Source: a bacterium
GTDB lineage: Bacteria; JAJVIF01
Assembly: GCA_022072165.1 (NCBI GenBank)
Contig: JAJVIF010000001.1
Location: forward strand, 1,488,001 to 1,552,000
Length of the DNA stretch: 64,000 bases
Reading direction: 5' to 3'
Below are positions 7,107 to 61,814 of the stretch, one piece after another; the first letter of the stretch is position 1, and each line of letters starts with the position of its first letter. The notes beneath the pieces are model-generated. The model had not been told where the DNA came from, did not search any database, and worked only from the letters and a program-made list of their open reading frames with translations. The position numbers and the translations under genes are program-made.

Positions 7107-8361
7107 TCGCGATTCCGACAGTCATGATCAGCACCGTAGAGTACCAGCCGTAGCGGAGATACTCGCCGAAGGAGAGGTCATAAGCCCGGCGCGCCCCTTC
7201 GGCGACGATGATGTTGGCAACCGAACCGAGAAGCGTGAAGTTTCCGGCGATGGTGGTGATCCAGGCCATGAGCAGCCACCCGAGTTCGGGATCTCCCAGA
7301 CGGTCAAGATGGGGTCCTGTCAGCAGCACCATTGGGACATTGGAGACAAGATTTGATCCGAGGGTCAGCATGGTCGCGAAGAGGGCCAGTCCAGGGAGTT
7401 GGTCGTAGCGCATCTGTGGTGCGAGATGTTCCCACTGTTCATGAAGGAGTCCGGTCTGCTCCAGCCCTCCGACGACGACAAAGAGGCTCGCGAAGAAGAC
7501 CAGGACGGTCCAGTCGATGCGAGCGAAGAGGGGGCTGGGGTCCCGCCGTGACAGGGTCATGGCCAGTACCCCACCACCTAAGGCGGCATAGCCCAGGTGC
7601 ATCCCCGCCAGAAACGCGACAAGCACCGCCGCACTGGCGACAGCGACAATCCGAATGCGTTGCCAGTCGGGTTCCCGGACTGGCAGCGCCGTGTCCGCGA
7701 CGTCGGTCACATCAGGCTCGGGATCCGTCGCCGGTGAAGCGGTATCAGAGTCGACGGGGACCAGCGACCGGCTGTAGTGGCGCTCCAGCAGCCAGGCATT
7801 GATGGCGAGTCCGGCCATCGCTGCCGGGGCGCATAGGAGGAAAAAGCGGAGAAACGCAATCTGGCTCAGATTGCCGATCAGCATGTTCTGGGGATTCCCC
7901 ACGAGTGTCGCTGCGCTGCCGATGTTCGCCGAGGTGGCGAGGGCCATCAGGTAGGGTCCCAATGGGAGTCGGCGCATCCGGCAGGTCATGACGATGACGG
8001 GGGTCAGCACGAGGCAGATGGTGTCGTTCACGAAAATCGCGCTGAGGCAACCGGCCAGCCAGACTGTGAGTCGCAACAGCTGGAGGTCGGAGAGCGCTGA
8101 CCCCAGGAGTCGGGCGCTGACCCAGGGGAAAAATCCTGCTTCCGCGAACTGGGCGGTCAGCAGCATCATGGCAAAGAGGAGCAGGAGGGTGTCGAGGTCC
8201 AGGGCGGCGTAACTGGCAGCCGGCGTGAGCACCCCGGTCAGTACCATCAGGACCGCTCCCAGCAGGGCTCCGCCCGGCCGGCCCAGCGGCAACCACCGAA
8301 GGCGCCGTGCGGCGATCAGCAGGTAGGTGCCACAGAAGATGACCAGCGCGAGCGTTGTCAT
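7087..8361 (-). CDS. SLC13/ArsB-type anion permease
   Basis: A 424-residue, very hydrophobic protein with about ten or eleven predicted membrane segments. The N-terminal half ([19 protein letters not shown], then [15 protein letters not shown] and [18 protein letters not shown]) shows the pattern of the ArsB/NhaD/SLC13 ion-transporter superfamily. The repeated N-x-x-P-x-x-L and G-N-P-Q-N motifs correspond to its re-entrant hairpins, and a second [11 protein letters not shown] repeat lies in the C-terminal half. The hydrophilic loop near residues 200-230 is typical. The substrate cannot be read from the sequence; arsenite, dicarboxylate, sulfate or sodium/proton exchange are all possible. It is transcribed convergently with addA and divergently from msrBA, about 70 bp away. 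Confidence 0.75.
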
Positions 8362-8432
8362 GCTGCAGTCGCGGGAACAAACTCCCCCGGTGCGGGGTTG
8401 AAGCGGGTAGCATACTCACGGAGGTGGATTCC

Positions 8433-9542
8433 ATGACGGACCGCACCACCTGGACCCTCCTGGTTGTCCTGGCCCTCGCCGGGGCAGGGATTGGGTCCGT
8501 GCTCACACGCTCCACTACGGCTGCCGAGGAGACTATGACACCTGAAGAACTCGCCCCGGCCTGCGAAACGGCCTGCGGCCTGCCCGACTCCGACGAGGAG
8601 TTGCGGAAGCTCCTGTCACCGGAGCAATACCGCATCATGAAGGAGAACGGCACCGAGCGTCCGTTCGCCAACGAGTACTGGGACAACCACAAAGAAGGGC
8701 TTTATGTCGACCGGATCACCGGGACCGTCCTCTTTTCCTCGAAGGACAAGTTCGACTCCGGTACCGGCTGGCCCAGCTTCACCCGCCCTGTCCATCGGGA
8801 GTACCTGGTGGAACTCGCCGATGCGAGTCACGGGATGGTCCGGACCGAGGTCCGCTCCCTCACCAGTGATTCCCATCTGGGCCATGTCTTTCCCGATGGC
8901 CCCCCTCCGACCCGCCAGCGCTACTGCATGAACTCGGCCTCCCTCCTCTTCATTGGGGTGGAGCATCTGGAAGAGACCGGCTACGGCAACTATCTGCCCC
9001 TCTTCGGCCAGCTCCCCACGAAGCCGGGGAACAATCCGGAAGCGATTCCGGGAGTCGTGGAACTGGCGACTTTCGGCGGGGGCTGCTTCTGGGGGGTCGA
9101 GACCTTCCTGCGGGATGTCCCCGGGGTGGTCGCGACCTCGGTCGGCTATGAGGGCGGACACACCGAACAGCCGACATACAAGCAGGTCTGCAGCAAGTCA
9201 ACGGGCCATGCGGAGGTCGCACTGGTGGCCTATGCGCCATCGGTCGTGAGCTACGAAACGCTGCTGAAGACGTTCTTCGAGTACCACGACCCGACCCAGC
9301 TGAATCGTCAGGGACCGGATGTCGGGGACCAGTACCGGTCGGTGATTTTTACGCACAATGCGGAGCAGGATCGGCTGGCGCGGGCGTTCATCGCGGATCT
9401 CACGAGTCGGGGCATTTTCCGTCAGCCCATCGTGACCCAGGTCCTCCCCTCGCAGACCTACTGGAAGGCCGAGGAGTACCACCAGCAGTACTTTGAGAAG
9501 CAGGGGCATGTGAGCTGCCATCCGCGTCAGCGGACGCTGTAA
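8433..9542 (+). CDS. msrBA: Exported MsrB-MsrA fusion, peptide methionine sulfoxide reductase
   Basis: A 369-residue protein that repairs oxidised methionine in both stereochemical forms. The chosen ATG follows a strong ribosome site (GGAGGTGG, 8420-8427) and begins with a signal-type segment ([19 protein letters not shown]), so it probably acts outside the cytoplasm. The MsrB domain comes first, with [12 protein letters not shown] and catalytic RYCMNSASL (C165). The MsrA domain follows with GGGCFWGVE (C218) and [20 protein letters not shown]. Two CxxC pairs that bind structural zinc in many MsrB proteins are absent: the usual CxxC before LFSS is replaced by RITG. The B-then-A order is the reverse of the common PilB/MsrAB arrangement. 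A good terminator follows. Confidence 0.92.
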
Positions 9543-23076: not shown

Positions 23077-23559
23077 CTACTTCTTGGCCGCAGACTTCTT
23101 GGCGGCGGCGGGCTTGGCAGCCGGCTTCTTGGCGGCGGCGGGCTTCGCAGCGGTCGCCTTCTTGACGGCCGGCTTCGCAGCCGTGGTCTTCTTGGCGGCG
23201 GGCTTGGCAGCCGTGGTCTTCTTGGCGGCGGCGGGCTTCGCAGCAGTCGCCTTCTTGACGGCCGGCTTCGCAGCCGTGGTCTTCTTGGCGGCGGCGGGCT
23301 TCGCAGCGGTCGCCTTCTTGACGGCGGGCTTCGCAGCCGCAGCCTTCTTGGGGGCGGCCGGCTTGGCAGCCGTGGTCTTCTTGGCGGCGGCCGGCTTCGC
23401 AGCGGCAGCCTTCTTGGGAGCGGCCGGCTTTGCAGCGGTCGCCTTCTTGGCGGCGGCGGGCTTGGCGGCGGTCGCCTTCTTGGCGGCCGGCTTCGCAGCC
23501 GTCGTCTTCTTGGCAGCAGCCGCGGGCTTCTTGGCCGCAGCCGGCTTAGGAGTAGCCAT
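23077..23559 (-). CDS. Lys/Ala/Pro-rich histone-H1-like DNA-binding protein
   Basis: A 160-residue low-complexity protein made almost wholly of Ala, Lys, Pro and Thr in repeated KPA(A/V)KK and KKTTAAKPA units from residue 3 to the end. It is extremely basic and has no hydrophobic core. Such tails resemble eukaryotic histone H1 and bacterial H1-like proteins (Chlamydia HctA/B, Bordetella BpH1, AlgP), which compact DNA through lysine-rich arms. The ATG follows a strong ribosome site (GGAGGA). It is monocistronic with its own terminator. The repetitive coding sequence could vary in length by slippage or recombination. The strict lysine spacing also leaves an opposite-strand frame open, which is not a gene. 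Confidence 0.8.
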   Translation of the reverse strand: MATPKPAAAKKPAAAAKKTTAAKPAAKKATAAKPAAAKKATAAKPAAPKKAAAAKPAAAKKTTAAKPAAPKKAAAAKPAVKKATAAKPAAAKKTTAAKPAVKKATAAKPAAAKKTTAAKPAAKKTTAAKPAVKKATAAKPAAAKKPAAKPAAAKKSAAKK

Positions 23560-52337: not shown

Positions 52338-54932
52338 CTAGCCCCGAAATAACTGGAGGACGTTCTGCGGGAGCTGGTTGGCCTGCGCCAGGATGGCGGT
52401 GCCCGCCTGCAGGAGGATCTGCGACCGCGTGAACGCGATGGTCTCCTCCGCGATGTTGAGATCCCGAATCCCCGACTCCGAAGAGGCGAGATTCTGCCGG
52501 GTGATGTCGAGGTTCCGGATGGTGCTCTCCAGGCGGTTTTGCACCGACCCCAGGTTGGACCGGAGGCTGGAGACCTTGTCGATGGCGACATCTACCGACG
52601 TGATCGCGGCCTGGGCGCTGGCGGAGTTCGCCAGGATCAGGCCCCGAATCCCCAGGCTGTCCGAGGAGACCCCGGATATCGCCAGCGTAAGATCCTGCCC
52701 CTGATTCGCGCCAATCTGGAAGTTGATGGCGTTGGGCACCAGGTGGAGGAAAGTGGTCCCGATGAAGTCGGAAGTCACCGAGATCGTGGGCTTGGCCAGG
52801 GGGTCGAGGTTAATCGGCCCGCGGGTGTCATTCGCCCCCGGTCCGGGGACCGGGTCGAGCTTGAAGCCCTGATTGGTGTTGAACTTCAGTTCCACGCCCC
52901 GAATGACGCCGCGAACAGTGCCATCCTGGGTGATGGTCTCGTCGATCAGCGCCCCGGTCTCGATATTCACGACACTGACTTTGAAGGTCGCCAGCTTGCT
53001 GTTCTGGATGGTGAAGAGCGACAGCGCGTTGATGGTCTTCTCATCGCCGATGAAGGCGAGTTCCGCGCCGGGCACCGGACTGGTGATGGAGATGGTTCCC
53101 TTCGCCGGACCGATGAGGTTGAAGTTCACCAGGTTCGGGAAGTTGCCACCCGCCAGCGTGTCCTCGAGGTTGAGGTCCGAGGTCCGGTTGGGATCGGCGA
53201 TGGCGAGCGACAGCTTGCCGACCAGGTCCTGCACGGTGTCCGTGGCGTTGAGGAAGATCGTGGTGCGCCGTCCGGACCCCGGCACGGCCAGTCCGATTTC
53301 CACGGTGTCGCGTCCCAGGAAGACATTCTCTGCCTGGAAGCGGCTGATGGACCGGAGCTGCGTGTCGAGCTGGGCCACCAGCACGTTGTTGGTCGACGTG
53401 TGGAAGATCGCGGTCTCGCCCGCTTCCAGGATGGCATCGAAGCTGATGCGCAGCCCCTGGAGGGTATCGAGATTCAGTGCGGCGGCCGTACCGGCGCGTC
53501 CGATAGAGCCGGTGCCGGACACCGAGCCCGTATCGAGGTTTGTCACCCGGTAGGTGCGATTGGACAGCGCAGACACCCGGAAGGTGTAGCTGCCGGACAC
53601 CGCCGACACCTGCACGATCCGGCCATACTGCGCGAACTCGTTCTGCCCCGCCTTGTTGAAAACGATCTCATCGGTGCCGGTGGAAACACTGGCATCGAAG
53701 CGGACATCGATTTCACCCGTGGTGCTGTCGCCGAGCGTGAAGATGCCGCCCGCGACGTTCTCAATGATCCGGTTGCCGTTGGCGGTGATCGCCACCGACG
53801 CGGCATCGATGAAGGCTCGGGTGATGTCTGCCGCGCCCGCTGCGACCGAGAAAGCGGAGAAGCCGAGGTCGAGCTGGGAGCCGGAAGTATCGACATCTTC
53901 CAGGCCGAAGAACGAGAGCGCGATGCTCTGTCCCGCCGCGATCGAAACGGCCAGTTGCCCGGTGCCGGTCACACTGAACGCGCCGTTGGCACCAATGGAG
54001 AAGGCGATGCTCAGGAAGGCGGCCACACTGGAAAGCGTCGTACCCGCGGTGATCAACAGCGCGGCATCGACAGTCGAGCCGTTCACACGCTCGCCGCGGA
54101 CCCGCAGACGGTCTACACCGAGGGTCAGCTCCTTGGCGTTGAAAGTCCCCGCCAGGTCGTCCGCAGCAACAGCCACAGAGGTCCCCAGCACCGAGATAGT
54201 CGCGCTGCCATAGGAGACCAGGAGGCGGCCATTGGTGGTAGTGCTCTGGATTTCCAGCTCATCAATGCCGATCTGGGAGCCGGTGGCGTTCCGGAAGGAG
54301 GCATTGTTGAGGTAGGTGGTCAGCCCGTTGAACGACCCGACCCGATCCTCAGTGGCGATGGTGTTGAACTGGTCGGTCTTGTAGGTCGCCAGTTCCGGCG
54401 GCGCCAGCAGGGTAGTCCGGATCTGGAAGTTGCCACCTTTGCCAACATTCCCCAGGATGTTGACCTGGACAGTCGAGGGGTCATCCAGGGAGTAGAGGGC
54501 CGCAGCGGACCCATCGAGGAGCCGCTTGGTGTTGAACTCCGTGGTCCGGGCGATCCGGTCGACCTCGTCGATCAGCTGGTCCACTTCCTTCTGGATTTCG
54601 AGGCGGTCGCTGGAGGTGAGGACTCCGTTCGCCGCCTGGATCGCCAGTTCGCGGATCCGTTGCAGGATCGTGTTGGTCTCGGCCAGCGCCCCTTCCGCCG
54701 TCTGGAGGAGGCTGATCCCCTCCGAGGCATTCTGGGACGCCCGGGCGAGTCCCCGGACCTGCGCCCGCAGGCGCTCCGAAATCGTGAGACCGGCGGCGTC
54801 ATCCGCCGCCCGGTTGATTCGCAAGCCGGTGGAGAGTCGTTCGACGGATCGCTCCAGGTGCCGGCTGGTCTGCGCCAGACTGCGGGTCGCATTCAGCGCA
54901 ATGATGTTCTGATTGATCTGCAGGACACCCAC
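52338..54932 (-). CDS. fliC1: Large flagellin 1
   Basis: An 864-residue flagellin. The D0/D1 N-terminus (INQNIIALNATRSLAQTSRHLERSVERLSTGLRINRAADDAAGLTISERLRAQVRGLARASQNASEGISLLQTAEGAL, shortened) and C-terminus (SSLRSNLGSVQNRLESTIRNLDITRQNL...ALQLFRG-type LPQNVLQLFRG) are strongly conserved. About 600 residues between them form the outer D2/D3 region rich in Thr, Ser, Asn and beta strands, a likely glycosylation surface. The start is GTG after GGAGGA; the paralogue at 59223-61814 uses ATG at the same position. No cysteine is apparent, as usual for flagellin. Confidence 0.95.
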   Translation of the reverse strand: MGVLQINQNIIALNATRSLAQTSRHLERSVERLSTGLRINRAADDAAGLTISERLRAQVRGLARASQNASEGISLLQTAEGALAETNTILQRIRELAIQAANGVLTSSDRLEIQKEVDQLIDEVDRIARTTEFNTKRLLDGSAAALYSLDDPSTVQVNILGNVGKGGNFQIRTTLLAPPELATYKTDQFNTIATEDRVGSFNGLTTYLNNASFRNATGSQIGIDELEIQSTTTNGRLLVSYGSATISVLGTSVAVAADDLAGTFNAKELTLGVDRLRVRGERVNGSTVDAALLITAGTTLSSVAAFLSIAFSIGANGAFSVTGTGQLAVSIAAGQSIALSFFGLEDVDTSGSQLDLGFSAFSVAAGAADITRAFIDAASVAITANGNRIIENVAGGIFTLGDSTTGEIDVRFDASVSTGTDEIVFNKAGQNEFAQYGRIVQVSAVSGSYTFRVSALSNRTYRVTNLDTGSVSGTGSIGRAGTAAALNLDTLQGLRISFDAILEAGETAIFHTSTNNVLVAQLDTQLRSISRFQAENVFLGRDTVEIGLAVPGSGRRTTIFLNATDTVQDLVGKLSLAIADPNRTSDLNLEDTLAGGNFPNLVNFNLIGPAKGTISITSPVPGAELAFIGDEKTINALSLFTIQNSKLATFKVSVVNIETGALIDETITQDGTVRGVIRGVELKFNTNQGFKLDPVPGPGANDTRGPINLDPLAKPTISVTSDFIGTTFLHLVPNAINFQIGANQGQDLTLAISGVSSDSLGIRGLILANSASAQAAITSVDVAIDKVSSLRSNLGSVQNRLESTIRNLDITRQNLASSESGIRDLNIAEETIAFTRSQILLQAGTAILAQANQLPQNVLQLFRG

Positions 54933-55190
54933 GTCGGTGATTCCTCCATGAATACCGTGTTGGTGATGGGCCCCGGGGAAAATGCAACGACGGCGAGCGG
55001 CTGACCTGGGCTTCAGTCCGACTCCGTCGGCGCAGGAAGCCTGGCAGCGCTCACCGGCGACTGCGCGGGGCGCGGTACTGGCCCTCGCGTTGCCATCCCT
55101 GACAACGCGACGGATGTCCCGCAAGGTGGGGTGCCCTCCTGGCAGCCGCATCCTAGCAGGGGACCGGGAACTGCTCCGGTCCGTTCCCCG

Positions 55191-55217
55191 GTATCGGCAG
55201 CCAGCCGAGGGCCTTGA
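55191..55217 (-). promoter_or_regulatory. Sigma-28-like promoter of flagellin 1
   Basis: Minus strand TCAA (55217-55214), 15 bp, GCCGATAC (55198-55191). Both boxes are identical to those of flagellin 2. The predicted leader is about 250 nt. Confidence 0.75.
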
Positions 55218-55341
55218 GCCAGGAAATGAAGAAAGGTGGGGCTGGCACTCGAACAGCCACTGGCGGTCACACTGCGTCTTCAGGGCGTTCAAACTGAAAC
55301 TGCGATGTAAGAAAATTTACTGAATCTCATGCCGAAACCCC

Positions 55342-55370
55342 TTGACGCGGCCTTAACGAGACGGCATATT
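55342..55370 (+). promoter_or_regulatory. Sigma-70-like promoter of module A
   Basis: TTGACG (55342-55347), exactly 17 bp, CATATT (55365-55370). It lies about 40 bp before the ATG of the Cys-rich protein gene. The equivalent promoter of module B is split by an AG repeat. Confidence 0.7.
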
Positions 55371-55410
55371 GACGCCAGTTGTTATTTCCAGTGCATCTAG
55401 GAGGCCTGCC

Positions 55411-55863
55411 ATGTTGTTCAGAGTGTTCCTCGTGATCCTCTGTACGCTGGGTTTCTCAGGATCGACTCTCGCGCCCGCCCAGGCGGCGGACTGCTGTTGT
55501 TACCGGACCAGTGTCGTGCTGTGGGAGGACTGGTGGTATTGCCAGGTGGACTGCACACAGCAGGACCCCGCAGAGCTGTGCAAAATCAGGAAGCGCTGCC
55601 AGGGCTATACCGTCTCAGGAAAGTGCAAAACGAGCTGGTTCAGTTGCCTGGGGCACACGATGCTCTCGTGCGGATCAGCACCGGTCACCGGACAAGTCAC
55701 CTGTGAGTATGAACTGGTGAATCCGGAAGATCCCAACTGTGTTGCAGACCCGGAGCAGATCGCGCTCTGCATCAACATCGACTGCCCAACTGCACCGCCG
55801 CCAGGCGAGTACCACTGCAATCTGGGCGGACCCTGCTGTGACACAAGTGGTAACTGCTCATGA
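55411..55863 (+). CDS. Small secreted 18-cysteine protein, module A
   Basis: A 150-residue protein of a family I do not recognise. A signal peptide (LFRVFLVILCTLGFSGSTLAPAQA) is followed at once by ADCCCYR. The mature part of about 125 residues holds 18 cysteines, enough for nine disulfides, ending in LGGPCCDTSGNCS. All 18 cysteines align with those of the paralogue at 57137-57592, as do VDCT..DP.ELC, GKC, NPEDPNC-like and LCI. AGGAGG precedes the ATG. It sits 53 bp before a lipoprotein gene (or overlaps it by 4 bp if that gene starts at 55860). The content suggests a disulfide-rich extracellular or surface protein. Confidence 0.85.
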   Translation: MLFRVFLVILCTLGFSGSTLAPAQAADCCCYRTSVVLWEDWWYCQVDCTQQDPAELCKIRKRCQGYTVSGKCKTSWFSCLGHTMLSCGSAPVTGQVTCEYELVNPEDPNCVADPEQIALCINIDCPTAPPPGEYHCNLGGPCCDTSGNCS

Positions 55864-55916
55864 AGCCCGAGCGTACCGTTGTCGCACATCTGTTCAATCG
55901 GAAGGAGAGTCCTGAA

Positions 55917-56921
55917 TTGCGTACCCTGATCCTGTTCGTTTTGTGTCTGGTGTTCGCGGGGTGCTCGGCGAAGCGCACCAACAACACCACGACATCGCAG
56001 GATGTTATCGCTGCACCAAACCATGCCCTGACTCTGGTGCAGCAGTTCACGCCGGCTGATGAAGAGGCTCAGTGGTACCTCGCGGGGGACCCCCGGGCCA
56101 TCGCGTTTGTACAGAGCAGCCGGATGAGCAGTGCTTTCGAATGGGCCATCACTGGCTACCTGCGGGCGTATGGGCATCTGCCAGCCACTGTGGATGATCT
56201 GCTGGAGAGTGGCCTGGTGCTCTTCACACCGACTCGCCCGGATGGCACCCCGTATCCGTTCCAGGTGGTCCAGACGCTGCCCGAAGAGCCATCGACCGAA
56301 GCAGTACTGCTTGCCAAGGAAGGGGCGATCCTGCGGGGATGGTTACCTCCCGTCGATGCCAGCGTGAAGGCACGCCGCATCTATGTCAATCTGGATAAGC
56401 GCTACCAGATGTACAACTCGCGGCAGACGGTCATGCCGACCGTACCGCAGGCTGTCCTCGCGAATCGGGTCGCGCAGCAGGCATCCATCGGGGGCCTCTC
56501 ACCAGGTGCCTTCGCCAACCAGTTCCTGCATCAGTCGGATGGACTGGAGGAGCAACGGGCGGTCGCGCTGCTGGCTGCGAGCATCGGACTGATGAGCATG
56601 GATGCGCAGGCCCGGGGTCGGGTGGCGACCTCGCTGGAAGCCGTCCTGCAGGCGCATCGTCTCGCGTTTCGCGATGTCGCGACCGTCACCGGAAATGTCG
56701 ATCTGCTGGACTATCCTCTGGGAGTGCAATTGCGGACCTCGACAGACCGGAATCTGCTCCAGATCGCCATCAAGCCGAGTATCGAGGGACTGGATTACCA
56801 GTTGCTGAAGTTCATGCCGGATTACTCACTTGGGCGCGTCACGAAGCTGGATTTGTCAGGCGATGTCGCACCGCAGGAGGCCGGGTGTCACGACCTGGTC
56901 GCGACCCTCGTGCTGCAGTAG
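55917..56921 (+). CDS. Lipoprotein of unknown family, module A
   Basis: A 334-residue lipoprotein. RTLILFVLCLVFAGCS is a signal peptide with lipobox VFAGC. The body has AITGYLRAYGHLPATVDDLLESGLVLFT, a mostly helical centre, and a C-terminal block LDYPLGVQLRTSTDR...GLDYQLLKFMPD...EAGCHDLVATLVLQ that is shared with the lipoprotein of module B. The TTG start follows AAGGAGAG and gives almost the same length as its paralogue (332). An ATG at 55860, overlapping the previous stop by 4 bp, would add 19 residues before the signal peptide and is less likely. No known domain is recognised. Confidence 0.8.
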   Translation: MRTLILFVLCLVFAGCSAKRTNNTTTSQDVIAAPNHALTLVQQFTPADEEAQWYLAGDPRAIAFVQSSRMSSAFEWAITGYLRAYGHLPATVDDLLESGLVLFTPTRPDGTPYPFQVVQTLPEEPSTEAVLLAKEGAILRGWLPPVDASVKARRIYVNLDKRYQMYNSRQTVMPTVPQAVLANRVAQQASIGGLSPGAFANQFLHQSDGLEEQRAVALLAASIGLMSMDAQARGRVATSLEAVLQAHRLAFRDVATVTGNVDLLDYPLGVQLRTSTDRNLLQIAIKPSIEGLDYQLLKFMPDYSLGRVTKLDLSGDVAPQEAGCHDLVATLVLQ

Positions 56922-56958
56922 TTTCCCCCAGAGCGAGAGGTGTGACGGGGAAGTGGCC

Positions 56959-56984
56959 GAGCCCGGGAGTCCGCTCCCGGGCTC
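56959..56984 (+). terminator. Terminator-like hairpin after module A
   Basis: Perfect 11-bp stem GAGCCCGGGAG/CTCCCGGGCTC with a 4-nt loop, 38 bp after the stop. There is no T-run, so termination may be partial. Confidence 0.5.
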
Positions 56985-57064
56985 GCGTGTTGCTGGAGGG
57001 GGAATGAGCCAGCTTCCTGTGCAGTCACAGGCTGCAAATTACCCAGGAAAGCCGACTTACTTAG

Positions 57065-57100
57065 TTGACAAGAGAGAGAGAGAGAGAGAGAGAATATCTC
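57065..57100 (+). promoter_or_regulatory. Promoter of module B with repeat-filled spacer
   Basis: Consensus -35 TTGACA (57065-57070), then 22-24 bp almost wholly of AG repeats, then AATATCT (57093-57099) as the likely -10. The -10 lies about 40 bp before the ATG, as in module A, but the spacer is 5-7 bp longer than the optimal 17. Expression should depend on repeat number. Confidence 0.6.
57071..57093. repeat. AG dinucleotide microsatellite (about 11.5 units)
   Basis: An uninterrupted run of 23 bp of alternating A and G. It is the only simple dinucleotide tract of this length I noticed in the window and sits precisely between a -35 and a -10 element. Confidence 0.95.
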
Positions 57101-57136
57101 CACTCATAGAACGTCGAGCGTAGGAGGTCTTACAGG

Positions 57137-57592
57137 ATGCGCGCGTACTTCGCTTTGCTGAGCACGCTGATGGTTCTCTTCCTTTTCGCCATTCCTTCTG
57201 AAGCTTCGCAGCAGTGTTGCTGCTACAGAATTGTGAGCTTTAGCTGGATTGGCCTAAACGTATGCGACGTTGACTGTACTGAAGCTGACCCCCCAGAGCT
57301 TTGTGAAGTGGAAAAGTACTGTTGGGGGACCAACGTCAACGGCAAGTGCAAGAGCCACTCTGGGTCTTGCGGAATTGGGAACTGGACGCCTACGAACTGT
57401 GGTTCGACAGGGCAGTATGGTTCCTATACGTGCACACTCACACCAACTAATCCCAACGACCCGGCCTGCTTCGATACGGAAGAGGAACTACGCCTCTGTA
57501 TTGAAGTAAACTGCTTACCGGACCCCAATCCCACCTCATACACCTGCCCGCTGGGTGGCACCTGCTGTCACGCAAACGGGAACTGCAAATAG
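57137..57592 (+). CDS. Small secreted 18-cysteine protein, module B
   Basis: A 151-residue paralogue of the protein at 55411-55863. The signal peptide (YFALLSTLMVLFLFAIPSEA) is followed by SQQCCCYR. The mature part again has 18 cysteines at matching positions (CDVDCTEADPPELC, GKC, NPNDPAC, LCIEVNC, LGGTCCHANGNCK), though most other residues differ. GGAGG precedes the ATG by 9 bp. The gene is visibly richer in A and T than its neighbours. It lies downstream of the AG-repeat promoter and 34 bp before its lipoprotein partner. Confidence 0.85.
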   Translation: MRAYFALLSTLMVLFLFAIPSEASQQCCCYRIVSFSWIGLNVCDVDCTEADPPELCEVEKYCWGTNVNGKCKSHSGSCGIGNWTPTNCGSTGQYGSYTCTLTPTNPNDPACFDTEEELRLCIEVNCLPDPNPTSYTCPLGGTCCHANGNCK

Positions 57593-57626
57593 CCCACTCT
57601 TTTACTCAAGACTGGAGGTCTTCGCC

Positions 57627-58625
57627 ATGAAGTTCACCCCGATTCTCCTGATCTGCGGCGTCGTGTTGATGGGCTGTCAGCAGGCCCGCGAGCAAGCTGC
57701 ACCCGCGGCACCAAAGGAACCCACCGCCGCACCCGTTGCACAGGGTTTTGAGCCTTCCAATGCCATCTCTCGAGGATTGCTGGCAGGCGATATGGCCAGC
57801 CGGCAGACGGTTCGCACGAGTCTTCTCAAGGGCGAGTTGATGCACGCCGCGCTGGGGTACTACCGAATGATGGGCGAGTTGCCATCGCACGCAGCGCCAC
57901 TGCTGGAGCAGGGTCTGCTGATGCACACCACCACGGACAGCAGCGGTCAGGCGATGCCCTGCCAGGCGGTCGACTCGCTGCCAACGGAGGCGGCCGCAGA
58001 CCGGATGCTCCTTGCGATCGAAGGCGACCGGCTGCGGGCCTGGATCCCAGCTCTGGGAGAGGGAGCCCCTGCCCGCATTGCGGAGATTGCGATGTCCGGT
58101 CAAGTGCAGACACGGGCAGTCAGGGAGATCGGGCAACTGCCACTGCAGGATGCCGTTCTGCTAAAAGAGGAGTTGCGGCAGGCCGCCGCCGAGTCAGGCG
58201 GGCCTGCCAACGCCGGAGTGAATCAGTACATTCATCGTTCCCGGGGTGCTGCAGAGCAGCGACTGAGAGCGCTGAACTGGGCGAGCCTCGGCGTGTTGAA
58301 TCGCGGCGCCGCGATCCTCGGACGCGCCCCGGAATCGTATGGGGAGGTGCTCCCCATGCTGGGACTGGCACCGTTGGGGTATCGCCTGGAAGATGGTCCA
58401 GTGAAGCTGCTGGAACAGCCGCTGGGTGTCCAGTACATCGCGACCCTGGATCGTCAGCGGGTGCTGATGTATCAGAAGCCCTCCATGCCTGCGCTGGACT
58501 ACCAGATGCTGCAGTACGTCCCTGATGCGCGGACTGGGGAAGTCGCCATGTCCGAAGTGGGCGACACCATTGTTCCGGAGAGTTCAGGCTGTACCGAGGT
58601 ACTGGGGACGCTGCTGTTGCCATAA
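57627..58625 (+). CDS. Lipoprotein of unknown family, module B
   Basis: A 332-residue lipoprotein, paralogue of the one at 55917-56921. The signal FTPILLICGVVLMGCQQ has lipobox VLMGC. An Ala/Pro-rich stretch leads to the body. ALGYYRMMGELPSHAAPLLEQGLLMHT matches ITGYLRAYGHLPATVDDLLESGLVLFT of module A, and LLEQPLGVQYIATLDRQ...ALDYQMLQYVPDARTGEV...SSGCTEVLGTLLLP matches its C-terminus. A ribosome site GGAGG precedes the ATG. A strong terminator follows. No catalytic motif is visible. Confidence 0.82.
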   Translation: MKFTPILLICGVVLMGCQQAREQAAPAAPKEPTAAPVAQGFEPSNAISRGLLAGDMASRQTVRTSLLKGELMHAALGYYRMMGELPSHAAPLLEQGLLMHTTTDSSGQAMPCQAVDSLPTEAAADRMLLAIEGDRLRAWIPALGEGAPARIAEIAMSGQVQTRAVREIGQLPLQDAVLLKEELRQAAAESGGPANAGVNQYIHRSRGAAEQRLRALNWASLGVLNRGAAILGRAPESYGEVLPMLGLAPLGYRLEDGPVKLLEQPLGVQYIATLDRQRVLMYQKPSMPALDYQMLQYVPDARTGEVAMSEVGDTIVPESSGCTEVLGTLLLP

Positions 58626-58659
58626 GCCTGGTCCGCCATTGCTCTTCCAACGACCCTCG

Positions 58660-58695
58660 ATGCCCGGGAGGAACCTCCCGGGCATTTCGTTTTCC
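58660..58695 (+). terminator. Rho-independent terminator of module B
   Basis: 12-bp perfect stem ATGCCCGGGAGG/CCTCCCGGGCAT, then TTCGTTTTCC. Confidence 0.85.
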
Positions 58696-59222: not shown

Positions 59223-61814
59223 CTACCGGAAGAGCTGCAGCGCGTTCTGCGGCAGCTGATTGGCCTGCGCCAGGACCGCCGTCCCAGCCTGCAACAGGAT
59301 CTGGTTGCGGGTGAAGGCGAGGGTCTCCTCCGCGATGTTGAGGTCGCGGATGCCGGATTCCGACGCCGCCAGATTCTGTCGGGTGATCTCCAGGTTCCGG
59401 ATCGTGCTCTCCAGGCGGTTCTGCACGGACCCAAGATTTGACCGGAGGCTGGAAACCTTGTCGATAGCGACATCGACCTTGGTGATCGCCGCCTGCGCGC
59501 TGTCGGTGTTCGCCAGAATCAGGCCTTTGAGGCCCAGGCTCTGGCTGGAGACGCCCGCGATGGCGAGGGTCAGATCCTGTCCCTGATTCGCGCCAATCTG
59601 GAAGTTGATGGCGTTGGGCACCAGGTGCAGGAAGTTGGTGCCGACAAAGTTCGACGAAATCGAGATCGTCGGCTTGTCGAGCGGGTCGAGGTTGATGGGG
59701 TTGCGGGTGTCGTTCTGGCCGGTACCGTTCACCGGATCGAGCTTGTACCCCTGGGTGGTGTCGAAGTTGATCTCCACGCCCCGGATGACACCCCGGACGA
59801 AGCCGTCGGTGGTCTTCAGGGACTGCACCAGGGCTCCCGACTCCACATCCACAATGCTCACCTGGTACGACGGGAGCTTGCTGTTCTGGATGGTAAAGAG
59901 GGAGAGGGCGTTGAGGGTCTTCTCATCGCCGATGAAGGCGAGTTCGGCCCCCGGCACCGGGCTGGTGATGGAGATGGTCCCCTTTGCCGGACCGGTGAGG
60001 TTGAAGTTCACCAGGTTCGGGAAGTTCCCCCCTGCGAGGGTGGCTTCGAGGTTGAGGTCGTTGGTCCGGTTCGGGTCGGCGATGGCCAGCGAAATCTTGC
60101 CGACCAGGTCCGCCACCGTATCGGTCGCGTTGAGATAGATGGTGGTGCGGCGTCCCTGACCGGGGACCGCGAGTCCGATTTCCACGGTATCGCGCCCGGT
60201 GAAGACCCCTTCCGCCTGGAAGCGGCTGATGGACTTCAGCTGGGTGTCGAGCTGGGCGACCAGCACGTTGTTGGTGGAGGTGTGGAAGATCGCGGACTCG
60301 CCCGCCTCCAGGATGGCATCGAAGCTGAGGCGCAGGCCCTGCAGCGTGTCGAGACCCAGCGATGCGGCAGTCCCGGCCCGTCCGATGGACCCGGTCCCGG
60401 AGACCGAGCCGGTGTCGAGGTTCGTCACGCGGTAGGTCCGGTTCGAGAGCGCCGAAATCCGGAAGGTGTAGCTCCCGGAGACCGCCGACACCTGGACCAG
60501 CGTGCCGTATTGCGCAAACTCGTTCTGTCCCAGCGTGTTGAAGACCAGTTCGTCGGTGCCGGTGGTGACATCGGCGCTGAAGCGGATGTCGATCTCGCCC
60601 GTCGAGCTGTTGCCCAGGGTGAAGATGCCGCCGGTGACGTTCTCAATGACCCGGTTGCCGTTGGCGGTGATCGCCACCGACGCCGCATCGATGAAGACCC
60701 GGGAGATATCGGAGCCGCCGGCCGCCACGGACAACGGGGTAAACCCGAGGTCGAGCGTCGATCCCGAGTTGTCGAGATCATCCAGCCGGAACGAGCTGAT
60801 GGCGATGCTCTGGCCCGCCCCAATCGAGACCGCGAGGGTTCCGGTGCCGGTGACGCTGAACGCGCCGTTGGCACCCACGGAGAACGCGAGGCTCATGAAG
60901 GCGGCGACACTTCCCAGCGTGGTCCCAGCGGTGATCAGGAGGGAGGCATCGACTGCCGCCCCACCGGTGTTGGTCCCGGTCACGCGCAGGCGGTCGACCC
61001 CGAGGGTGATCTCCTTCGCATTGAAAGTCCCGGCCAGGTCATCGGCAGCAACCGCCACCGAGGTCCCGAGCACGGAGACGGTCGCGCTCCCGAAGGAAAC
61101 CAGGAGCCGGCCATTGGTGGTGGTGCTCTGGATTTCCAGTTCGTCGATGCCGATCGCCGTCCCCGTCCCGCTGCGGAACGTGGCGTTGTTGAGGTAGGTG
61201 GTCAGGCCGTTAAACGAGCCCACCCGGTCCTCGGTGGCGATGGTGTTGAACTGGTCGGTCTTGTAGGTCGCCAGCTGCGGGGCGTCCAGCAGGGTGGTCC
61301 GGATCTGGAAGTTCCCCCCCTTGCCGACATCGCCCAGGATATTGACGCTGACGGTCGTGGGGTCGTCCAGGGAGTAGAGGGCGGCCGCCGAGCCATCCAG
61401 GAGTCGCTTGGTGTTGAACTCCGTGGTGCGGGCAATGCGATCGACCTCGTCGATCAGCTGATCGACTTCCTTCTGGATTTCGAGCCGGTCGTTGGAAGTG
61501 AGGACACCGTTCGCGGCCTGGATCGCCAGCTCGCGAATCCGCTGGAGGATGGTGTTGGTCTCCCCCAGCGCGCCTTCCGCCGTCTGGAGGAGACTGATCC
61601 CCTCCGAGGCATTCTGCGACGCCCGGGCCAGGCCCCGGACCTGCGACCGGAGTCGCTCGGAAATCGTGAGACCGGCGGCGTCATCCGCAGCGCGGTTGAT
61701 GCGCAGGCCAGTGGAAAGCCGCTCGACAGAACGTTCCAGCGCTTTGCTGGTCTGGGAGAGGCTGCGGGTCGCGTTGAGTGCGATGATGTTCTGATTGATC
61801 TGCAGAACACCCAT
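59223..61814 (-). CDS. fliC2: Large flagellin 2
   Basis: An 863-residue paralogue of flagellin 1 with conserved ends (MGVLQINQNIIALNATRSLSQTS...; ...LPQNALQLFR) and an equally large, similar central region. The two proteins are alike along their whole length, so the copies arose by duplication rather than by sharing only the ends. The ATG follows GGAGGAA. A sigma-28-like promoter lies about 335 bp upstream, giving an unusually long leader of about 330 nt. flaG follows in the same direction. Confidence 0.96.
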   Translation of the reverse strand: MGVLQINQNIIALNATRSLSQTSKALERSVERLSTGLRINRAADDAAGLTISERLRSQVRGLARASQNASEGISLLQTAEGALGETNTILQRIRELAIQAANGVLTSNDRLEIQKEVDQLIDEVDRIARTTEFNTKRLLDGSAAALYSLDDPTTVSVNILGDVGKGGNFQIRTTLLDAPQLATYKTDQFNTIATEDRVGSFNGLTTYLNNATFRSGTGTAIGIDELEIQSTTTNGRLLVSFGSATVSVLGTSVAVAADDLAGTFNAKEITLGVDRLRVTGTNTGGAAVDASLLITAGTTLGSVAAFMSLAFSVGANGAFSVTGTGTLAVSIGAGQSIAISSFRLDDLDNSGSTLDLGFTPLSVAAGGSDISRVFIDAASVAITANGNRVIENVTGGIFTLGNSSTGEIDIRFSADVTTGTDELVFNTLGQNEFAQYGTLVQVSAVSGSYTFRISALSNRTYRVTNLDTGSVSGTGSIGRAGTAASLGLDTLQGLRLSFDAILEAGESAIFHTSTNNVLVAQLDTQLKSISRFQAEGVFTGRDTVEIGLAVPGQGRRTTIYLNATDTVADLVGKISLAIADPNRTNDLNLEATLAGGNFPNLVNFNLTGPAKGTISITSPVPGAELAFIGDEKTLNALSLFTIQNSKLPSYQVSIVDVESGALVQSLKTTDGFVRGVIRGVEINFDTTQGYKLDPVNGTGQNDTRNPINLDPLDKPTISISSNFVGTNFLHLVPNAINFQIGANQGQDLTLAIAGVSSQSLGLKGLILANTDSAQAAITKVDVAIDKVSSLRSNLGSVQNRLESTIRNLEITRQNLAASESGIRDLNIAEETLAFTRNQILLQAGTAVLAQANQLPQNALQLFR

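Follow-up and report, generated by a model that had tools for sequence, protein, structure and literature searches.

Positions 55342 to 58695 of a 64,000-nucleotide stretch (hereafter the window) of a bacterial genome (GTDB JAJVIF01; assembly GCA_022072165.1, contig JAJVIF010000001.1, positions 1,488,001 to 1,552,000) contain two plus-strand gene pairs, each composed of a gene for a cysteine-rich exported protein (C) followed by one for a partner lipoprotein (LP). We propose, with a probability of about 0.62, that these pairs, designated C1+LP1 (pair 1) and C2+LP2 (pair 2), belong to a repertoire of phase-variable (contingency) surface cassettes spread through the genome, most of them with tandem repeats placed where a change in repeat number would be expected to alter the promoter or the reading frame.

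The gene pairs and their relatives

C1 (55411..55863) is a secreted protein of 150 residues with a signal peptide and 18 mature cysteines, a nineteenth lying inside the signal peptide, and its gene is preceded by the ribosome-binding site (RBS) AGGAGG at 55399-55404. LP1 (55917..56921), a lipoprotein of 334 residues with a TTG start and the lipobox VFAGC, follows it. The corresponding proteins of the second pair are C2 (57137..57592; 151 residues, signal peptide, 18 mature cysteines, RBS AGGAGG at 57122-57127) and LP2 (57627..58625; 332 residues, lipobox LMGC). C1 and C2 are 42-43% identical and all 18 mature cysteines align one to one, with CCCYR after the signal peptide and LGGxCC...GNC at the C-terminus of both; LP1 and LP2 are 34% identical (E 4e-45) and have the motifs GYxRxxGxLP and LDYQ(L/M)L.(F/Y).PD in common. 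The pair 1 promoter (55342..55370; TTGACG, 17 bp, CATATT) matches the consensus, lacks a tandem repeat and is predicted not to be switchable, and a terminator-like hairpin without a long T run (56960..56983; z -2.4) lies downstream of the genes. In pair 2 an (AG)11.5 simple sequence repeat (57071..57093) occupies the whole spacer between the -35 box TTGACA (57065..57070) and the -10 region GAATATC (57092..57098), and a strong terminator-like hairpin (58662..58683; z -6.4) is followed by ATTTCGTTTT. A promoter, an RBS and a hairpin downstream belong to each pair separately, so the pairs form two transcription units.

The preliminary description of this DNA reported a tandem duplicated module of a secreted 18-cysteine protein and a lipoprotein, and the two pairs are real, with the lengths, cysteines, end motifs and common lipoprotein motifs that it gave. 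They are, however, merely two among many scattered copies, and the promoter repeats, which are the most telling feature because they point to phase variation, were overlooked. The source genome (G000) is a 3.26 Mb assembly of four contigs, C1 to C4 (loci below are given as contig and position, as in C1:1587k), of which 1.84 Mb (56%) was read as stretches. Searching with LP2 yielded additional LP genes within this genome. Six other loci were followed first, and in each an open reading frame for a cysteine-rich protein with a signal peptide, starting near CC, lies directly upstream of the LP gene; one of these C copies is frameshifted and one locus has two LPs. A profile search recovered more LP genes, several likewise with a C partner. 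There are 26 unit promoters in the sequence read, and from their density in unselected stretches the whole genome may hold 30-35 units. Four are double units of the form C-LP-C-LP (C1:1587k, C1:1590k, C2:427k and C4:125k), and a fifth (C3:75k) reads C-LP-C, perhaps with another lipoprotein. Three or four units are of a second type (family B), in which a cysteine-containing lipoprotein or exported protein accompanies a lipoprotein of about 430 residues.

The family-A LPs are homologous, with leave-one-out profile E values below 1e-7 for 24 of 32 (3e-33 for LP1 and 6e-28 for LP2) and the second LP of a double unit usually further removed; different units often have sequences just ~20% identical. 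Nearly all LPs have a lipobox-like cysteine (type II signal peptide), LP_o1, LP_g2 and probably LP_A4a being without one. The C gene is immediately upstream of the LP gene in every complete unit. The preliminary description had named recurrent adjacency, together with a confident interface, as support for a system. Such adjacency occurs some 20 times in this genome and again in a second genome, from another family; the C+LP pair is thus a system. One natural fusion (C1:480k; L087:8922-9845, minus strand) joins the N-terminal portion of a C protein to the body of an LP in a single 307-residue frame, without a lipobox, and adjoins its intact parental cassette. Its LP part compared with the paralog shows purifying selection (nonsynonymous divergence, dN, 0.16; synonymous divergence, dS, 1.02), suggesting that C and LP occupy a common compartment, with part of the divergence possibly predating the fusion. 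Two further oddities of the family are a cassette at L044:8517-9086 (minus strand) in which the C gene is disrupted by a frameshift and the LP is intact, and two plus-strand LPs (L086:6278-7303 and 8134-9201) that are ~33% identical over the first 200 aligned codons and 96% over the last 70, a pattern suggestive of recent gene conversion.

Both families went unrecognised at the outset, and neither finds a usable match in Pfam, NCBIfam or PDB, the PDB matches of LP lying mainly over the lipoprotein signal region. We rejected as noise a PADLOC match to MzaB (13.8 bits) and a Pfam match to Imm_superinfect (E 0.08), and a likeness of LP to pseudopilin-type 'Y....G..P' motifs, seen by eye, has no profile match in support. 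A DNA-pattern scan of 84,980 genomes and viral contigs found no relatives of C1 or C2; the LP profile is too divergent for this DNA-level tool. Among 385 genomes the LP profile gives convincing matches solely in the source genome and in G002, the metagenome-assembled genome 'bacterium isolate AUK107' (JAGGVT01), which is from the same class but another family; matches in G003, G048 and G192 are marginal. On the AUK107 contig a C gene (14 cysteines) again directly precedes the LP gene, and a (TG)8.5 array lies inside a TTGTGT-17-TATAAT promoter. The C profile, in a whole-genome search, did not recover this member, so that a lack of C matches elsewhere carries little weight. The family may plausibly be confined to one lineage, a view weakly tested by a collection in which four genomes represent the class.

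Tandem repeats at the cassette promoters

Most units have tandem repeats in the sequence upstream of the C gene. When the complete source genome was searched by pattern for AG/CT or GT/CA arrays of 17 bp or more, eight loci were returned, all eight upstream of C/LP cassettes; seven of the arrays directly adjoin a TTGAC -35 box, and the eighth (C4:114k) lacks a clear one. As a control we took 20 stretches of 20 kb selected by position alone, which, triplets and one short coding CA run excepted, contained three repeats (8-bp x6.6, AG x10.5 and 10-bp x4.9), each of them preceding a C-LP pair that the homology searches had missed. Across 1.16 Mb chosen independently of repeats and cassettes, seven repeats have a period of 2 or 4-20, and four of these lie at cassettes, an outcome with a probability of ~1e-10 under random placement; of the other three, one is a 7-mer within coding sequence, one a 15-bp repeat upstream of EF-Ts and one a 7-bp x4 repeat upstream of ssb. 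In all 1.84 Mb the fraction at cassettes is 20 of 24. Enrichment over the genome background is seen both in the genome-wide array search and in the unselected sequence. We also note that the repeat before ssb, (ACGCAAG)x4.1 at G000:C2:285946-285974 (L153:5946-5974), lies just upstream of the gene and is the sole clear non-cassette repeat longer than 20 bp in the sequence read. In the AUK107 genome, stretches L220, L225, L233, L234 and L097 contain dispersed arrays of a related 8-bp repeat (GTTAGCAG / CTAACCTG), with no tie to C-LP pairs as far as seen.

At about 20 units the arrays lie in or adjoin the -35/-10 region, and at units A2 and A11 they cover the start region, so that they are placed to control either transcription or frame. 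Dinucleotide arrays run from the final base of the -35 box, or a position adjacent to it, to the -10 box. Since 17 bp is the optimal -35/-10 spacer of sigma70 promoters, pair 2 of the window, with its spacer of now 21-22 bp, is predicted to be off in the sequenced clone and two repeat units away from on. The unit at C3:163k (G000:C3:163530) has (AG)9.5 followed by the same -10 box as pair 2, with a spacer of 17-18 bp. The unit at C1:1590k has (GT)9 in TTGACG-17 bp-TAGCGT, and its paralog 3.5 kb away at C1:1587k has (GT)13 in TTGACG-25 bp-TACTTT. Other promoters include C2:315k, with a (CT)10 array in TTGACT-17 bp-TATAAT, C2:427k (TTGACA-21 bp-TACAAT) and C4:125k (TTGACA-19 bp-TAACCT). Promoters with 17-bp spacers are predicted to be on and those with spacers of 19-25 bp weak or off, and both classes occur, even between paralogs.

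Repeats of 8-12 bp are arranged differently: their start coincides with the -10 box or follows it closely, so that they lie in the leader, at promoters whose spacers are 16-17 bp. In A2 an 8-bp repeat after the ATG encodes the N-terminus, and in A11 a 17-bp repeat spans the RBS and the ATG. At C1:479k/481k, a cassette and its partial (fusion) duplicate have near-identical promoters with 3.7 and 2.6 repeat copies, respectively. The spacer at C2:340k holds a decayed GA tract, and this unit and pair 1 of the window are probably locked. The architecture of a switch is thus strongly supported by the sequence, with switching itself the event it predicts.

Proposed mechanism and its alternatives

From the gene pairs, the repeats and their promoter positions, the spacer differences between paralogs and the parity of the cysteines, we infer a mechanism involving switching, C-LP binding, surface exposure and a resulting benefit. 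Each unit would be transcribed from its own sigma70-like promoter to give an exported disulfide-rich C protein and its cognate LP, and the promoter repeats would gain or lose units by slipped-strand mispairing. In dinucleotide arrays, changes of two bases at a time would take the spacer from 17 bp, the on state, to 19-25 bp, where the promoter is weak or off, and back, and loss or gain of a unit in A2- or A11-type repeats of 8 or 17 bp, over the start codon or N-terminus, would shift the reading frame. A clone would thereby diversify into cells showing different subsets of cassettes. The C protein probably folds as a disulfide-knotted ectodomain held on, or carried to, the outer membrane by LP, and the benefit is likely to be evasion of surface recognition (by phage, grazing protists or competitors) or variation in adhesion. 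A tethered ectoprotein, putatively in contact with its LP, would be the simplest model for the pair.

Several points weigh against this interpretation. Each species is represented by a single assembled genome, so that length differences are seen solely from paralog to paralog, and a portion of the 1.84 Mb was selected through LP homology or through the arrays themselves. Repeats are not exclusive to cassettes, as those before ssb and EF-Ts illustrate, and 6 of the 26 unit promoters, pair 1 of the window included, lack a qualifying repeat today. An effect of the 8-12 bp leader repeats on expression is presumed from their position. AlphaFold2 models built from two-row alignments (pLDDT, the per-residue confidence score, 42 for C and 36 for LP) are unusable and too poor for judging an interface, and an apparent co-divergence of C and LP (Mantel p 3e-4), which is due solely to two tandem duplicates and is gone once one member of each is dropped, was left unused.

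An alternative explanation, which we regard as unlikely, is that the repeats are no switches but debris of mutation, or traces left when cassettes were duplicated, and that expression is constitutive. Such an origin would suit A12, A16 and A18, which share nearly the same 10-bp unit, possibly inherited via duplication, and the case for switching does draw on one genome. Yet repeat units as different as 2, 8, 9, 10, 12 and 17 bp share one position with respect to the -35 and -10 boxes, such arrays hardly occur elsewhere in the genome, and closely related promoters have spacers of both 17 and more than 19 bp.

The shared promoter bears on a second alternative, in which the cassettes are polymorphic toxin-immunity (bacteriocin-like) pairs, with C a secreted disulfide-rich toxin and LP a membrane-tethered immunity protein. 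A small cysteine-rich secreted protein followed by a lipoprotein, in many divergent paralogous pairs, has the look of such a system, and a few extra LPs without a C gene (L048, L084 and L088) would fit as well. However, immunity genes normally stay on, and with a single switchable promoter for both genes an off cell would lose its immunity against on siblings. A protective role for LP is disfavoured for this reason; both proteins would switch together, as expected for co-display. The ratio of C to LP is moreover near 1:1 with few orphan LPs, and no toxin, immunity or defence model is matched, so that we consider this explanation quite improbable.

The cysteines were counted in mature proteins with cleavage sites placed by hand. 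Their number is even in 13 of 15 single-C units, and among five double units both C proteins are odd in four (two of them paralogs) and both even in one, so that the total per unit is even in 18 of 20 (p 2e-4 in a post hoc test). This per-unit count replaces a first automated one with poorly placed cleavage sites (15 of 25, not significant). Even totals fit full disulfide pairing, which in most double units would include a bond from one C chain to the other. The disulfide-knotted fold that the preliminary description drew from cysteine conservation agrees with this parity, with the conserved cysteine pattern behind a signal peptide, from which disulfides are predicted, and with a VKOR disulfide-forming enzyme encoded in the genome. 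That the C proteins are instead secreted metal-binding or redox modules, metallothionein-like and free of disulfides, is very improbable: the cysteine content is very high and a distinct 172-residue protein with 48 cysteines is encoded elsewhere in the genome, but Sec signal peptides send C to an oxidising compartment, cysteines are even per unit and VKOR is present, the promoters look switch-like rather than metal-regulated, and the cysteine spacing is not CxC-repetitive.

Relation to known systems and neighboring genes

The best-documented contingency loci come from host-adapted pathogens and commensals. If phase-variable cassettes are indeed present here, repeat-based surface switching would seem to be a more general strategy, with a ready test of its drivers (phage, predators or kin). 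The promoter arrays would make function testable, as on and off states are predicted by repeat length, and repeats would flag fast-evolving surface genes overlooked by homology searches, as the three background repeats did. In a bolder form, which we hold tentatively and at somewhat less than even odds, this deep-branching and little-sampled lineage has a Neisseria-scale switching repertoire devoted to a single, hitherto unknown type of surface module, namely a disulfide-knotted ectoprotein that its cognate LP holds, in which most double cassettes combine two odd-cysteine C proteins joined by an inter-chain disulfide.

The cassettes resemble the Vsp and Vpma families of mycoplasmas, which are paralogous, stochastically expressed surface lipoproteins. 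In those families DNA rearrangement shuffles the genes, whereas here the cassettes have repeat-bearing promoters and two genes each, and they are not known to resemble those families in sequence. A closer likeness is to the contingency loci Haemophilus hifA/hifB, Moraxella uspA2 and Neisseria nadA, where short tandem repeats lie in the -35/-10 spacer, the upstream region or the reading-frame start of surface-protein genes (PMC2651432, PMC7302503, PMC2791445); hifA/hifB switches through a (TA)n spacer (PMC2651432), and uspA2 shows graded expression through upstream AGAT repeats (PMC7302503). In contrast to those loci, one orphan C+LP family here, of about 20-30 cassettes, takes nearly all of the tandem repeats in the genome, the lineage is a deep one, and switching is predicted from sequence alone. 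The principle of switching is thus a known one; the gene family, the lineage and the concentration of repeats on one family differ, and the protein families are new.

The two pairs of the window are flanked by two minus-strand paralogous flagellin-type genes (52338-55292 and 59223-61814). These genes are very long, the product of 59223-61814 having 863 residues, with an 875-residue counterpart in the AUK107 genome (L097). The 48-cysteine signal-peptide protein mentioned above (L186:6969-7487, plus strand; G000:C1:1842969-1843487) has CCxxGxCC-type repeats and by inspection lies outside any C-LP cassette. Elsewhere in the window, a 33-bp tandem repeat is present in 13 copies within a long open frame at 23095-23514.

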